This document shows positions 10,586 to 29,383 of a stretch of 35,739 nt of DNA, in pieces. Origin of the DNA: a candidate division SR1 bacterium (lineage in GTDB: Bacteria > Patescibacteriota > Gracilibacteria > Absconditabacterales > Absconditicoccaceae); contig JAPLUV010000011.1 in assembly GCA_026397395.1 (NCBI GenBank), forward strand, positions 1 through 35,739, read 5' to 3'. Below the pieces are notes generated by a model. That model saw only the letters and a program-made list of their open reading frames with translations. It did not search any database and had not been told where the DNA came from. Position 1 is the stretch's first letter. Every line of letters starts with the position of its first letter. The translations under genes were made by a program, and so were the position numbers.

Positions 10586-10658
10586 AGCCACGAACGGGAA
10601 TCGAACCCGTGACCTCACCCTTACCATGGGTGCGCTCTACCGTCTGAGCTATCGCGGC
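10586..10658 (-). tRNA. tRNA-Thr (anticodon GGT)
   Basis: A full cloverleaf on the minus strand: acceptor GCCGCGA/TCGTGGC (one G-T pair), D arm GCTC/GAGC, anticodon stem CACCC/GGGTG with loop ATGGTAA (anticodon GGT), and T arm ACGGG-TTCGATT-CCCGT. The discriminator is T. CCA is not encoded. A broken copy lies 39 bases upstream in its own orientation. Confidence 0.93.
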
Positions 10659-10697
10659 AATATTAGTTCTCACAAGTGAATACTTTTTGTTAAATAA

Positions 10698-10766
10698 GTG
10701 CGCTCGGACCGAACGAACAAAGTGAGTGAGCCCCGCATCTATTGCGGGGGTCTGAGCTATCGCGGC
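10698..10766 (-). pseudogene. Broken tRNA-Thr 5' copy invaded by a palindromic element
   Basis: On the minus strand 10766-10751 repeats exactly the first 16 bases of tRNA-Thr (GCCGCGATAGCTCAGA) and 10705-10698 repeats the next tRNA block GAGCGCAC. The five D-loop bases between them in the intact tRNA are replaced by a 45-bp insert (10706-10750). The insert has a CCCCCGC...GCGGGG hairpin and ends in TCGGTCC. The anticodon and T arms are absent. The same insert type sits in a tRNA-Lys-derived repeat at 28994-29019. Confidence 0.75.
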
Positions 10767-13900: not shown

Positions 13901-16034
13901 TAAGGAAAGCCAAGCACTTGCAAACAAAGCAGAAGCGACAGGTGATGGAAATGAACAATATAGTGAAACTATTGGCGAGAGAGAAATCAGTCTCATCAAT
14001 AATACGATAGAAGTTTCTTTCTTGAATCAAAAATCTGCCATCAATCAAGTAGATAAAAATAATCCTAATCAAGCGCCCGATATTCTTCTGGATGAAAAAA
14101 CCCAAACGATTAAAGTACCGTTTGAACTTTGGGAAAGAGGTATTCTCAATGTCAATCTTGATCCTTGTTTGAAGAAACATATTAGTATAGAAACAGATAA
14201 GAATGGGAAGAAATATATGGTAATATCAAAAGACATTCCTGTACGTCTTTTCACTGCTAGTACATGAACTAGCGCAGAATATGTTCTTAATCTCGGAGAT
14301 GTAAAATCTGATGGAGGCAAAAAATCTGTCGTGGATGGAAAAACTGTATTTGAAGATATTATGTTAACACCAGGAAAAGATATTCCTAGCGATTGGTTGT
14401 GAAATGCACAAACGCCTATTTTTGAAAAAATTACCAAAGTAGATGGCAAGAATGGAATCAATGATTTACTAACTAAACTTACTACATGAGCATATGCTAA
14501 CTTCCCTCTTCGCTCTGCTGCTAAGTCTACAGAGAAAGGAAAAGAACAACAGACTGTATTCACGTTAACACCACAGGTCAACGGAAAACCAGACTATCTT
14601 GTTTCGTCTCCTGACATCTTATTTAATAAAACAAATAACACATTAACTATTATTCCTGACACAGGTGAACTTACCGTTAATTTTGCAAAAGATAAAAATG
14701 CATATACCTTCTCTTATAAGAGCGAACCAAAAGATGCGTTAAAAATTTCTTATAGAATTAATGATCTTACTGCTGCAGAAGCAAGAGCAGACAATTGGTC
14801 TACGCCAACAAAGATTGAATTTAATGATAATAATAACTTATTTGATTTCCTTGATGCTCACTTATCCAAAGCAAATACACTTATTGAAAGTAACAAAACA
14901 GCAGTCATGAATGCTGAGTACAATAACTTCCCTCAGTTTAAAATTTTCATGGACAAGCTTTGGAATATTGACAATAACAGTACTTTAGATGCCTGAAAAC
15001 TTGATGCTGCGAAATGAGCACTTGTCAAAATTCTCTGAGCAAAAAATACGCTTACTACATTTATCAATGGACTTGGAAGCGATTATAAAACAGTAGCATA
15101 TGTCATGGATCGTATGAAACAAGTCTTTGCTATGGAGTGATACCAAAGCTCTCTTCAAACGATGTGGAGCAATAATAAAAGATGAGATAGATATCATAAT
15201 ATTTTATCTCCGTCTAAAGAAAAATTTCCTACATCTCTTAATAGAAGTTTAGTAAGTACTAAATGAAATATTACTGAAAAATTTGATAGCAATTGAGCTA
15301 AACTAGTAAACAATCTTGTCTGATATACAGCATTTTATAGAAAAGAATGAAGTCCTGCCTGGTCTATGACTGCTCCAGGAAGTACAACGGTATACAAAAA
15401 TTTTATTAGTGATCCCTTAAAAGATCAACAACTCACTGATGGAAAAAATCGATTTCTCAAAAATCTTGATAAGCAAACCTATGAAAAAGATCTCCTCTTG
15501 GAATCTATCAAAAGTAAAATCCCTGCAGAGTATAGAGACCAGATAAAATCTGAAGACGTAATCTCATTTTTGAATACATGAGAGAAGTATGTTACTATTG
15601 ACAATTGACAGAAGAAGTATAGAATAACTTTAAACGCTAGCTATCATTTCTATCTCTTATGAGAATGTGCAAATGAATCTCTTGGCATGAAAATCTGAGG
15701 TCTCGAGATCCAATCACTCAAACCATGAACTGGAGAGCTTGAAAACAGTAGTTGAGAAGTCAAACATAGCTATGAGAATCAACATGTATGATTATCGATC
15801 AACAATGCACAGACAAGAAATGAAGCCTTCCGAGGCAAAAAAGCTACAGCATGAATCAATCTTTCTCTAGGTGCAGCGAAGCCAAAAGCTAAAGAAGTCC
15901 CTAATGCTCCTCCACCACCAAATTCTACTTTCACAGAAACTCCTCCACCTCCAAATTCTACCTTCACAGAAAATACTCCACCACCAAATTCTACTTTCAC
16001 AAAACAGCCACCAGTACTATGACATTGACACTAA
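10989..16034 (+). CDS. Giant 1681-aa protein of unknown function
   Basis: It starts at ATG 10989, since an in-frame TAA at 10980 excludes earlier starts, and ends at TAA 16032-16034 with dozens of TGA glycines. There is no signal peptide. Residues ~30-220 are Lys/Asp/Asn-rich and probably helical. The middle (~675-800) is Gly/Ser/Leu-alternating (such as SLNVGNLANTGNSGLDYF and FSAGVGTGVNLAAGFIPMV), which resembles amphipathic beta or barrel-like sequence. The C-terminus carries three Pro-rich units, each containing PPNSTFT. I recognise no catalytic motif. Size, composition and position ahead of two exported surface proteins suggest a large structural or surface-associated protein, but the missing signal sequence argues against ordinary Sec export. 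Confidence 0.8.
15906..16004 (+). repeat. Tandem Pro-rich coding repeats
   Basis: Three units of 33-36 bp at the end of the 1681-aa gene, each encoding a proline run followed by NSTFT. The third unit has an extra codon. Such spacer-like tails are common cell-envelope tethers or protein-binding ligands. The reverse strand gives a spurious Gly-rich ORF. Confidence 0.8.
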
Positions 16035-16065: not shown

Positions 16066-18381
16066 ATGAAAAAGATTTTCTTCTTATCGTTATGTATAGC
16101 AACTACGCTCTGTAGTGGTGGTTTTGCTGTTGCGCAATCTATGCCAACGCTAAACACAAATATGGCTACACTAAATATTAGTCAACCATATGCACAATCA
16201 GAGTGTAAAGAACCGAATGGGTCTATTGTCTATAATGCTAAACAACTCTATTTGGGTGATAGCTATACAACAAGAGATTTTGTCCCTGTACGATGAAATG
16301 GATATGATACACTTATATTAGATAGTAGTAAAGTTTTGGTATATCACCCAACTCTTTTTAACTTTTCTTCCTCTATAACATGGAAAAGTAATGGAGTGCC
16401 TAATGGATTAAGCTCTTATGCTGTCGTATCAGCAATAGGAACCTTTCAGGCAAATGCTACTGGACACGGACAATTGATATACAATATCCATAGAACTGCA
16501 TTATATAATTGAGGAAGCAGTACCTATACCATTTCATATCTTCCCAATAGTAATGGCGCTACAACACAAACAACTACATTACATAACAAGACTTTTTATA
16601 ATCAACCAGGATGGGTAGTAGATGGATTTGAGTGTGTTGATTATACGGTGCATTATTGTGGTGATGGTATCGTAGATACACAGGCAAGTATTGCTGCACT
16701 TCCATGAGGCATAGCCAATTCTATAGCAAATGAAGAATGTGATGGCACTGCTTGAGTACCAAATGGATTTGCCTGTAACAGTTCATGTAAATTAGTACAA
16801 ACGATTGTACAACCACACTGTTCTCTCACACCCATACAACAAACCATTAGCTGTGGAGGAAATGCTATGTTAAGTTTTGTTACTACCAATACTAATTCGA
16901 TTTCGAATCTCGTAAATATTCCTAGTGGTACTGTTGCTATCAATGGATGATCTTCATTGAATGTAACACCAACACAAACAACAAGCTATAGTTTTACTGC
17001 AAATGGAATGCCAGGTTCTACACCTGCTATCTGTAGTGGAACTGTTCTCGTTAATCCTGCCGCACAACCAAACTGTTCGTTGACTCCAGCAAGCCAAACG
17101 ATCACTGCAGGTCAGAATGCTATGTTAAGTTTTGTTACTACCTTTACTAATGCTATTACTAATCTCGTAAATATTCCTAGTGGTATTGTTACTATCAATG
17201 GATCATCTTCATTGAATGTAACACCGACGACTACTACTACCTATAGCTTTACCGTTAATGGAGGTGCATGTACTCTGCCAAAGACCTGTAGCGGAACTGT
17301 CATTGTTACTGCTGCGCCACAGCCACATTTGTGGATAAATAAAACATTGATAAATAATGTTGCCTATCATTCTGGAGATCTTGTATGATGGAGAATTGAT
17401 TTCAAAAATATCTGATCTGGTGTTGCACATCATGTTATCCTCACTGATTATTTACCTGCATCATTACACTATGTAAGTAGCCAATTGTTTGGTATCGTTC
17501 CTCCTTATAATCTGTGAGTAGGAATGCTAGGAATCAATCCAGAGATTATTTATTCATGATTTGATTTGGCTCCTGGCCAGGCTGGATATATGATTATTAC
17601 CGGACAACTTATCTCATACGATCTTTGTGATAAAACGATGAATACATCATTTATAGAATCAGCTGAAGTCATTCCTGCACTTCATTCTGAAGCAATATTC
17701 TTTTGTTACTCACCAACGACTAATTTAACGATAGATAAAACAATTAATAAACAACTCTTCTATCCTGGAGAATATATTAGCTTTACGATAGCAGTAAAAA
17801 ATAATGGACCGGATGTTGCACAAAGTGTAAAGATAGGAGATGTTCGACCAAATCCTAGTTGTATTTTATCTACTGGTGGACGATCATCCAATATGCCACT
17901 TACCTTAACTAACCCAACTACTCCATATGAACGAACACTCAATACACCCTTAGCGACAGGGCAAACCGTCTATATCTATCTTACAGGACAAGTAAACAAT
18001 ACGCGAAGTTGTGCAGGTAATTATGTAAATACAGGAACATTAACGTATGTGGTAAATAATGTAACGAAACAATGACGAGATATCGTAAATTTTTCTGTAC
18101 CAATGGTTAACGTAAGTTTCACTAAATCGCTGCTCGCGCATGGTACAACCCATGGAGATGCTGTTGTCTATTCATTGGACTATGCAAATAATGGGACTGA
18201 TACCTTAACATCATATGACGTAACAGATTACTGGCCAGGAACACTGACCTTCACGTCTGCTACACCAATGCCTCAGTCACAAATTACTGTCCCTGGTGGA
18301 CAAATCTTGAAATGGCATTTCACTACACCACTTGCACCTGGAGGCACAGGAAAAATTATTCTCAATGGAACCATAAACTAA
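16066..18381 (+). CDS. Exported surface protein with DUF11-type repeats
   Basis: 771 residues, starting with a signal peptide (MKKIFFLSLCIATTLCSGGF...AQS). Then comes a beta-rich region and a Cys cluster, YCGDGIVD...NEECDG...CNSSCKL, resembling the DUF4215 Cys-rich repeat. Two tandem 85-aa repeats follow (from HCSLTP and NCSLTP). Three DUF11-like modules come next, recognisable by phrases such as LWINKTLINNVAYHSGD, LTIDKTINKQLFYPGEYISF and VSFTKSLLAHGTTHGD. DUF11 modules are typical of large bacterial cell-wall or secreted proteins. It ends at TAA 18379-18381, 30 bases before a related larger gene. There is no sorting motif or C-terminal membrane anchor. Confidence 0.85.
16813..17322 (+). repeat. 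Tandem 255-bp coding repeat
   Basis: Two units with period 255 bp (85 codons); the phrase AATGCTATGTTAAGTTTTGT occurs at 16861 and 17116. At 16948 unit 1 has TGA where unit 2 has TCA at 17203, so TGA aligns with a sense codon inside one gene. Confidence 0.85.
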
Positions 18382-28862: not shown

Positions 28863-28935
28863 GGGGTAGTAGCTCAGGCGGTAGAGCAATAGCCTTTTAA
28901 GCTAGTGGTCCCGGGTTCGAGTCCCGGCTACCCTA
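28863..28935 (+). tRNA. tRNA-Lys (anticodon TTT)
   Basis: Acceptor GGGGTAG/CTACCCT with a first G-T pair, D arm GCTC/GAGC, anticodon loop CTTTTAA (anticodon TTT), T arm CCGGG-TTCGAGT-CCCGG, discriminator A. CCA is not encoded. Flanking A-rich (28847-28857) and T-rich (28940-28950) sequences can pair and enclose the tRNA. Its 3' end is the start of a 116-bp direct repeat. Confidence 0.93.
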
Positions 28936-29183
28936 AAAGATGTTTTTTTATTTTTTTGTTAGAGAAAATATTGTCCGTCATATAAAGCTCAGGCCCCCGC
29001 TAAAGCGGGGCTTCGGTCCGAGCAATAGTAGAATACTAAGTAACAAGTTGGTCCCCCGGCCAGCCGGGGCTACCCTAAAAGATGTTTTTTTATTTTTTTG
29101 TTAGAGAAAATATTGTCCGTCATATAAAGCTCAGGCCCCCGCTAAAGCGGGGCTTCGGTCCGAGCAATAGTAGAATACTAAGT
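28926..29183 (+). repeat. 116-bp direct repeat, two copies, period 142
   Basis: 28926-29041 and 29068-29183 appear identical base for base. Each begins with the last bases of tRNA-Lys (GGCTACCCTA), contains the T-rich trailer and ends with a D-arm-like segment carrying a CCCCCGC...GCGGGG hairpin. The 26-bp joint (29042-29067) includes the hairpin CCCCGGC-CA-GCCGGGG in place of a T arm. Confidence 0.85.
28986..29077 (+). pseudogene. tRNA-Lys-derived relic with palindromes in D and T arms
   Basis: It aligns with tRNA-Lys as AGCTCAGG, [26-bp insert 28994-29019], GAGCAATAG, degenerate anticodon arm, TTGGTC, [CCCCGGCCAGCCGGGG], CTACCCTA. The D-loop insert shares CCCCCGC...GCGGGGCT...TCGGTCC with the insert in the broken tRNA-Thr copy at 10706-10750. 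No 5' acceptor strand is present, so it cannot make a tRNA. Confidence 0.65.
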
Positions 29184-29383
29184 GTAAACCTTTAGGCAGG
29201 AGAAGCGGGGCTAGATGAAATACTTCAAAGAAAACAAATAGAAAAATATCAAGCAATTGATTATTTTTTTTATTTTATTTTTTTTAGACTCATTCTACCT
29301 ATGAAGTCAATTATAAACTCTCTCTATTGATATTTTATGGAAAATGGATACTATACGTCATAGTATGCTTTTAGGTTATATCT

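Follow-up and report, generated by a model that had tools for sequence, protein, structure and literature searches.

SegB of phages T4 and T6 is a free-standing GIY-YIG homing endonuclease of the phage tRNA region (PMC13096335; Brok-Volchanskaya 2008, cited there). The enzyme of phage T6 makes its cuts inside tRNA genes and causes tRNA and segB to be amplified in tandem (PMC13096335). The motif given there for SegB, RAWTSGAAC, appears from its letters to have a complement that resembles the tRNA T-loop. In fungal mitochondrial DNA, mobile ORF elements (mORFs) duplicate the 3' end of their host gene, as described for atp6 of Allomyces macrogynus and for atp6, atp9, cox2, and nad3 of Glomus (PMC3630166). 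Integrative elements at tRNA genes likewise leave an intact tRNA and a partial copy around foreign DNA; these elements are kilobase islands with an integrase, without hairpin substitution or a GIY-YIG gene (PMC9897764).

The 35,739-nucleotide stretch analyzed here (the window) corresponds to contig 25 in the 1.25-Mb genome (39 contigs, 92% complete) of a candidate division SR1 bacterium, in which long reading frames were found only under genetic code 25 (TGA = Gly). Two of its tRNA genes are accompanied by broken tRNA copies (relics) with hairpin-forming inserts, which are probably the nuclease-less remnants of small, homing-type mobile elements sited at tRNA genes. The GIY-YIG nucleases found at such relics in related genomes resemble SegB in that they adjoin tRNA genes, and SegB provides the closest tested chemistry for the proposed cutting and duplication of tRNA genes (PMC13096335). 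They differ from SegB in that they measure 73-100 aa, consist of the catalytic domain only, and are encoded at bacterial chromosomal tRNA genes; SegB-like length and a DNA-binding region beyond the catalytic domain were not found, and the one member compared with phage records matched a single phage. Moreover, relics scarred by hairpins occurred here, whereas none are reported for SegB in the accessible text (PMC13096335).

Like the units described below, the fungal mORFs place an endonuclease gene at a host gene; they supply a replacement 3' end, and the displaced native end stays downstream as a relic (PMC3630166). A comparable order of intact gene, element, and putative displaced end was seen at downstream-type loci (e.g., L181 and L245). 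In contrast to the present units, mORFs reside in mitochondrial protein genes, encode LAGLIDADG or GIY-YIG enzymes, and are without anticodon-arm hairpins (PMC3630166). The present units are sited at bacterial tRNA genes and come in a 5' as well as a 3' form.

Rickettsia palindromic elements and REP/RAYT are GC-rich hairpins that spread in noncoding DNA. Palindromes of Volvox mitochondrial DNA are likewise reported to be GC-rich hairpins that spread through noncoding DNA (PMC2670323). The CCTGCC palindrome of the present genome behaves like such mobile palindromes. Anticodon-arm hairpins of the relics, in contrast, were variable in sequence, fixed in their position within the relic, and not found in control sequence. 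A search of open-licence papers found no account of GIY-YIG units that sit at chromosomal tRNA genes together with tRNA relics or with hairpins in the anticodon arm. The unit is apparently undescribed, and apparently of the free-standing homing-type GIY-YIG kind with host-gene duplication.

Broken tRNA copies in the window

The preliminary description of the window had placed a broken tRNA-Thr copy, with its D-loop bases replaced by a palindromic insert, 39 nt upstream of the intact gene. Alignment confirmed the broken copy, the insert in its D-loop, and the distance (Table 1). On the minus strand, the relic reads GCCGCGATAGCTCAGA, 45 nt, and GAGCGCAC, with 16 and 8 bases exactly matching the tRNA-Thr(GGT) gene. 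It keeps the acceptor 5' strand, the D-stem, and the first bases of the anticodon stem, and is without the anticodon arm and the 3' half. Its alignment score was 35.2, against a top control score of 23.4 for reversed tRNAs on the same flanks. The palindromic character of the insert applied to its first 19-20 nt, which form a perfect hairpin, but not to its tail, CTCACTCACTTTGTTCGTTCGGTCC, which is by itself no palindrome. Replacement of the D-loop bases is also only one of two fits: although 45 nt lie in the D-loop, an insertion of ~40 bp fits equally well, since the insert end, CGGTCC, may retain the CGGT of the original D-loop CGGTA. Hairpins of the window inserts (CCCCGC..GCGGGG) belong to the YCCCG..CGGGR class, yet are located in the D-loop.

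Table 1. Features at the tRNA-Thr(GGT) and tRNA-Lys(TTT) loci of the window.
Feature	Position	Strand	Basis
tRNA-Thr(GGT), intact gene	10586..10658	-	ARAGORN; Rfam RF00005, 66.2 bits
Spacer of 39 bp, relic to intact tRNA-Thr(GGT); probable remnant without endonuclease gene	10659..10697	-	
tRNA-Thr(GGT) 5' relic, tRNA nt 1-29	10698..10766	-	alignment to tRNA gene
D-loop insert of tRNA-Thr(GGT) relic, 45 bp	10706..10750	-	pattern match; alignment
Perfect hairpin in insert, 7-bp stem, 5-nt loop, YCCCG..CGGGR class	10731..10749	-	
tRNA-Lys(TTT), intact gene	28863..28935	+	ARAGORN; Rfam 68.8 bits
tRNA-Lys 3' relic 1, tRNA nt 9-73	28986..29077	+	alignment
D-loop insert CCCCCGCTAAAGCGGGGCTTCGGTCC of tRNA-Lys relic 1, 26 bp	28994..29019	+	pattern match
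Hairpin CCCCGGCCAGCCGGGG substituting T-arm of tRNA-Lys relic 1	29054..29069	+	
tRNA-Lys relic 2, tandem copy, truncated past anticodon-arm region	29128..29193	+	
D-loop insert of tRNA-Lys relic 2, second copy, 26 bp	29136..29161	+	pattern match

The insert family, which had also been reported from the D-loop of a tRNA-Lys relic, was indeed present there, in two tandem copies rather than one. Relic 1 of tRNA-Lys combines the D-loop insert with a rebuilt anticodon arm, a hairpin in place of the T-arm, and a retained 3' acceptor strand. Both tRNA-Lys relics are held by a tandem repeat with a period of 142 bp (28926-29041 and 29068-29183). Over the 1.25-Mb genome, the pattern CCCCCGC..GCGGGGCT..TCGGTCC gave three matches, all inside the tRNA-Thr and tRNA-Lys relics. 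A looser pattern, GGGGCT N{0,30} CGGTCCGAG, gave four matches, the additional one falling in a relic that precedes tRNA-Thr(CGT) (contig 34), and a control with the reversed pattern gave 0 matches over the genome. All genomic copies (4/4) lay in tRNA D-arms rather than mostly outside tRNA-like flanks. For the window insert, an account based only on a palindrome with many dispersed copies was rejected, because every copy lies in a tRNA relic.

Within the window, Rfam matched only the two intact tRNAs, which ruled out a T-box or another known RNA family, and tblastn under code 25 showed no nuclease trace. An ancestral conserved relic at tRNA-Thr(GGT) was also rejected: among the congeners read, a relic at this gene was present only in genome G001, on the opposite side of the gene and with different hairpins, in the anticodon arm and T-loop. 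At tRNA-Thr(CGT) (L009:2440-2690), a 5' relic (GCCAGGG..) lies on one side and a 3' relic (..CTCTGGC) on the other. Their acceptor strands match each other better than the intact gene, and by sequence the intact tRNA looks as if nested in a split one.

Relics and GIY-YIG genes at tRNA genes of the genus

Flanks of all 41 tRNA genes of the genome were extracted and every tRNA was aligned to its own flanks, with a score of at least 24 defining a relic. This analysis yielded 22 relics at 16 tRNA genes, all on the strand of the gene, while opposite-strand and reversed-tRNA controls yielded none at this score. When five congeners were included, 64 same-strand relics were found at 52 of 198 tRNA genes, as compared to 0 opposite-strand relics and 4 in the reversed-tRNA control. 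With few exceptions, upstream relics were 5' fragments that started at nt 1 and downstream relics were 3' fragments that reached the 3' end, as expected for a tandem duplication with one breakpoint within the tRNA.

Spacers of orthologous tRNA genes differed in length. In a tRNA operon common to six genomes, the Leu-Asn spacer was either compact (73-74 bp) or filled with a relic (151-169 bp). The Gln-Leu spacer measured 10 bp in G001, G004, and G007 and 348 bp, with a relic and a nuclease, in G003. A GIY-YIG protein was encoded in this 348-bp spacer and in the 452-bp spacer of the present genome. Hairpins at one spacer differed among the relics of G003, G004, and G008, those of G003 and G004 being perfect and that of G008 including a G-T pair. 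In the present genome, contigs 10 and 30 terminate (L012:1-198, L015:1-150) inside tRNA-Val(TAC) 3' relic units of ~104 bp, the T-loop of which carries CCTGCCTGCCGGTAGGCAGG; these ends are probably a single tandem tRNA-Val relic array that broke the assembly.

The preliminary description was right about a broken tRNA-Thr copy with a hairpin-bearing insert in its D-loop, and about the recurrence of the insert family in other D-arm relics. The D-loop is, however, not what defines the position of the hairpins, which in the genus and in other phyla occupied mostly the anticodon arm and also T- and D-loops. The window insert is most plausibly a portion of the scar left by a tRNA-sited element, rather than a free-standing palindrome that hits D-loops by chance.

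A PF01541 profile search of nine congeneric genomes revealed GIY-YIG ORFs of 73-85 aa beside tRNA genes, always on the strand of the tRNA and nearly always between the tRNA and a relic. In the present genome, same-strand nucleases were sandwiched in this way at the Leu(TAG), Leu(TAA), Val(GAC), and Tyr loci. Loci in congeners included Lys, Leu(GAG), Phe, Trp, Met, and others, with a broken gene at Trp. UvrC- and YhbQ-type GIY-YIG genes in the same nine genomes had no tRNA at their loci. The nuclease proteins matched the Pfam GIY-YIG family with E values of 1e-11 to 1e-17. As in a free-standing GIY-YIG homing element, the catalytic residues Tyr, Tyr, Arg, and Glu were invariant (17 nuclease proteins) and a self-splicing intron was absent (ten loci). 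A group I intron as carrier of the nuclease was thereby ruled out, Rfam 15 matching only tRNA at these ten loci.

Nuclease frames often extended into the relic (L163, L215, L220-L222, L225, L227, L229), so that the C-terminal residues predicted for the protein (e.g., ..LAQLVRVP..) represent translated tRNA. Several larger GIY-YIG genes, of 217-250 aa, were located near several tRNA genes in one stretch of G008 (C55:69933-96159), which is possibly phage and SegB-like.

Allelic states could be compared at the tRNA-Lys(TTT) locus, where the upstream gene was the same in most genomes compared. No element was present there in the sequence of G002, G007, and G008, of which the G008 contig stops 11 bp past the tRNA and covers the upstream side only. 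G001 and G004 showed the order tRNA-terminator-nuclease-3' relic-terminator, and in G001 the terminator was duplicated along with the relic as an exact repeat. The G004 relic, which had diverged beyond the alignment cut-off, was identified by eye. In G003 and G005, the order was 5' relic-nuclease-tRNA, while the window showed tRNA-terminator-relic-terminator-relic without a nuclease. Empty, filled, and remnant alleles, with the empty alleles intact, were thus found at orthologous sites in one genus. It is on these alleles of congeners that the window relics are read as nuclease-less remnants; their link to the element comes from the congeners because the window itself holds no nuclease trace.

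Distribution among bacteria and alteration of the anticodon arm

A scan of 84,980 species genomes was performed with five tRNA-associated nucleases as query, the 17-protein alignment being without a conserved stretch. The scan yielded 80 loci, of which 78 remained after removal of two that repeated genomes already used. A tRNA was located within 600 bp at 57/78 loci, and this proportion (73%) holds for the subfamily rather than for GIY-YIG at large, since the query was built from tRNA-associated nucleases. At all of these loci (57/57), tRNA and nuclease were on the same strand; 50 had a relic derived from this tRNA, at 45 the nuclease was sandwiched between the two, and a detectable relic on the nuclease side was absent at 12/57. 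Most of the 21 loci without a tRNA represented one separate Bacteroidota subfamily on the nuclease tree. On this tree, which was based on few columns and has many weak forks, tRNA isotype changed 34 times, as compared to at least 46 times in 500 shuffles, indicating that nuclease lineages tend to retain their tRNA.

Hosts included many CPR lineages, Bacteroidota, Omnitrophota, Elusimicrobia, Margulis/Saganbacteria, and Kiritimatiellales, as well as Verrucomicrobia, Chlorobiota, Balneola, Chloroflexi, and one Thioalkalivibrio MAG. The element was present in the isolate genomes of Draconibacterium mangrovi, Maribellus sediminis, and Pedobacter cryotolerans, and cultured isolates also included Indibacter and Crocinitomix, which makes it directly testable. 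In D. mangrovi, tRNA-Ala is followed by a terminator, the nuclease, a 3' relic, and the terminator once more; the frame of the nuclease enters the relic. A phage origin was rejected, as tblastn of one nuclease member against 50,697 phage records matched one phage only, in two record versions.

In relics at nuclease loci, it was almost always the anticodon arm that was destroyed. The arm was intact in 3/92 relics, while the acceptor 5' strand was intact in 50/54 5' relics and the variable region in 30/38 3' relics. A hairpin of at least 5 pairs with a CCG...CGG core was found in 47/83 distinct altered anticodon segments, as compared to 9/169 native arms and 0.54/83 shuffled segments. Hairpins replacing the anticodon arm were usually 16-18 nt long, and their outer pairs varied with complementarity kept (TC/GA, GT/AC, CC/GG, AG/CT, CT/AG). 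In the present genome, GC-rich hairpins occurred at 10 per kb in relics and at 0.055 per kb in a 200-kb control sample of the same genome (0.3 outside long ORFs), and the TCCCG..CGGGA hairpin was not found in the control sequence. One relic with a hairpin anticodon arm (L157:1725-1793) exceeds the Rfam gathering score for tRNA, at 35.3 bits, and poses an annotation hazard.

Proposed mechanism and alternative explanations

Given the observed architecture, common strand, fragment and anticodon-arm rules, presence and absence at orthologous sites, and isotype clustering of nuclease lineages, we infer from sequence comparison that the unit is probably mobile and that the hairpin may have a function. 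A complete element consists of an intact tRNA, an adjoining same-strand gene for a single-domain GIY-YIG protein of 73-100 aa, and a partial tRNA copy beyond the nuclease, the latter a 5' fragment when upstream and a 3' fragment when downstream. The partial copy has nearly always lost its anticodon arm, mostly to a hairpin of 16-18 nt built around CCG...CGG, and D- and T-loops may bear similar hairpins. The nuclease would cut tRNA genes without an element, after which repair of the break would either copy the unit in or yield a segmental tandem duplication of the tRNA. One copy would remain intact, presumably because the tRNA is needed by the cell, while the other would become a relic. Later loss of the nuclease gene would leave hairpin-scarred relics such as those in the window.

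The altered anticodon arm probably blocks re-cutting of the relic and/or interrupts the direct repeat, so that no remaining piece is long enough to be deleted by looping out. Candidate roles of the hairpin include target loss, a block to loop-out recombination between direct repeats, and a nuclease site. In the intact tRNA, the anticodon arm was identical in filled and empty alleles, for example at Leu(TAG), and simple destruction of the target in the relic therefore cannot explain the escape of the intact copy. The recurring CCG-CGG core of the hairpin exceeds what target loss alone explains. A broader proposal can be put forward only tentatively: the units may constitute a pan-bacterial, minimal family of tRNA parasites, in which a catalytic-domain-only GIY-YIG nuclease acts jointly with a dedicated hairpin (CCG...CGG). 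This hairpin, standing where the partial copy would otherwise have its anticodon arm, would be a functional part of the element, as a nuclease binding or cutting site, an immunity mark, or a recombination block. If true, these would be the first chromosomal elements that parasitize tRNA genes via a recurring hairpin module.

The nuclease family is located at essential, conserved tRNA genes in many phyla, where one intact copy was always left, and would represent a compact example of a selfish element that tolerates an essential target. Its relics are a possible source of the tRNA fragments that clutter annotations. In addition, the elements may drive tandem duplication of tRNA genes and changes of their copy number in bacterial chromosomes, an effect so far shown for phage SegB.

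An unlikely alternative, which nevertheless retains some weight, is that tRNA genes were simply duplicated in tandem and then decayed, that unrelated mobile palindromes (REP-like and possibly moved by Y1/RAYT transposases) entered the loops of the decaying copies, and that the nucleases are passengers. Three Y1_Tnp (IS200/RAYT-type) genes of the genome, C9:75612, C37:13711, and C29:9690 (L047, L048, and L049), are candidate palindrome movers. Dispersed copies of the palindrome CCTGCCTGCCGGTAGGCAGG numbered 62, as against four for the window insert, all in tRNA relics. Some CCTGCCTGCCGGTAGGCAGG copies occurred in the D- or T-loop of a Val, Leu(TAA), or Gly relic, while several lay within loops of further palindromic repeats (L034, L042, L035). 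However, this account leaves unexplained why in many phyla the nuclease is flanked by tRNA and relic and invariably shares their strand, and why the anticodon arm is selectively lost. It is further at odds with the densities of GC-rich hairpins in relics and control sequence given above, and with the absence of TCCCG..CGGGA from the latter. Three of the CCTGCCTGCCGGTAGGCAGG copies share one common context (L040, L041, L044), and this palindrome looks like an independent mobile one.

Selection on the relics as functional tRNA-like RNAs (leaders, decoys, or processing signals), with the hairpin as part of the fold, would fit stems that change in sequence while their pairing is maintained, and the different hairpins at the same spacer in G003, G004, and G008. 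It is nonetheless improbable, as close congeners were without a relic at the same locus, relics varied in side and extent, many were without half the tRNA, and the nuclease frame often passed through them. An origin of the relics as attR/attL tRNA fragments from past integrations by tyrosine recombinases appeals to a well-known process, since the tRNA fragments described in the literature stem mainly from partial duplication of tRNA upon integration (PMC9897764), and is still highly improbable here. Published islands measure ~9-23 kb between intact and partial copy, whereas the spacers at the fully read loci measured tens to a few hundred bp and held a GIY-YIG gene or nothing; in addition, both 5' and 3' relics occurred and a hairpin substituted the anticodon arm. 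Contigs 10 and 30 do break inside tandem tRNA-Val relic units, but an assembly artefact or chimeric contigs can be dismissed, as units were present in several congeneric assemblies and in isolates such as D. mangrovi, M. sediminis, and P. cryotolerans.

Repeats of other kinds were also observed in the window. A large ORF contained direct repeats of 210 bp that were 79% identical (16861-17325), and three repeats of 33 bp likewise lay within a large ORF (15910-16013). Between 31839 and 34715, a TTTTCTCCCTTGAAAACATTG-like repeat occurred five times amid small ORFs and may represent a promoter or regulatory site common to them.
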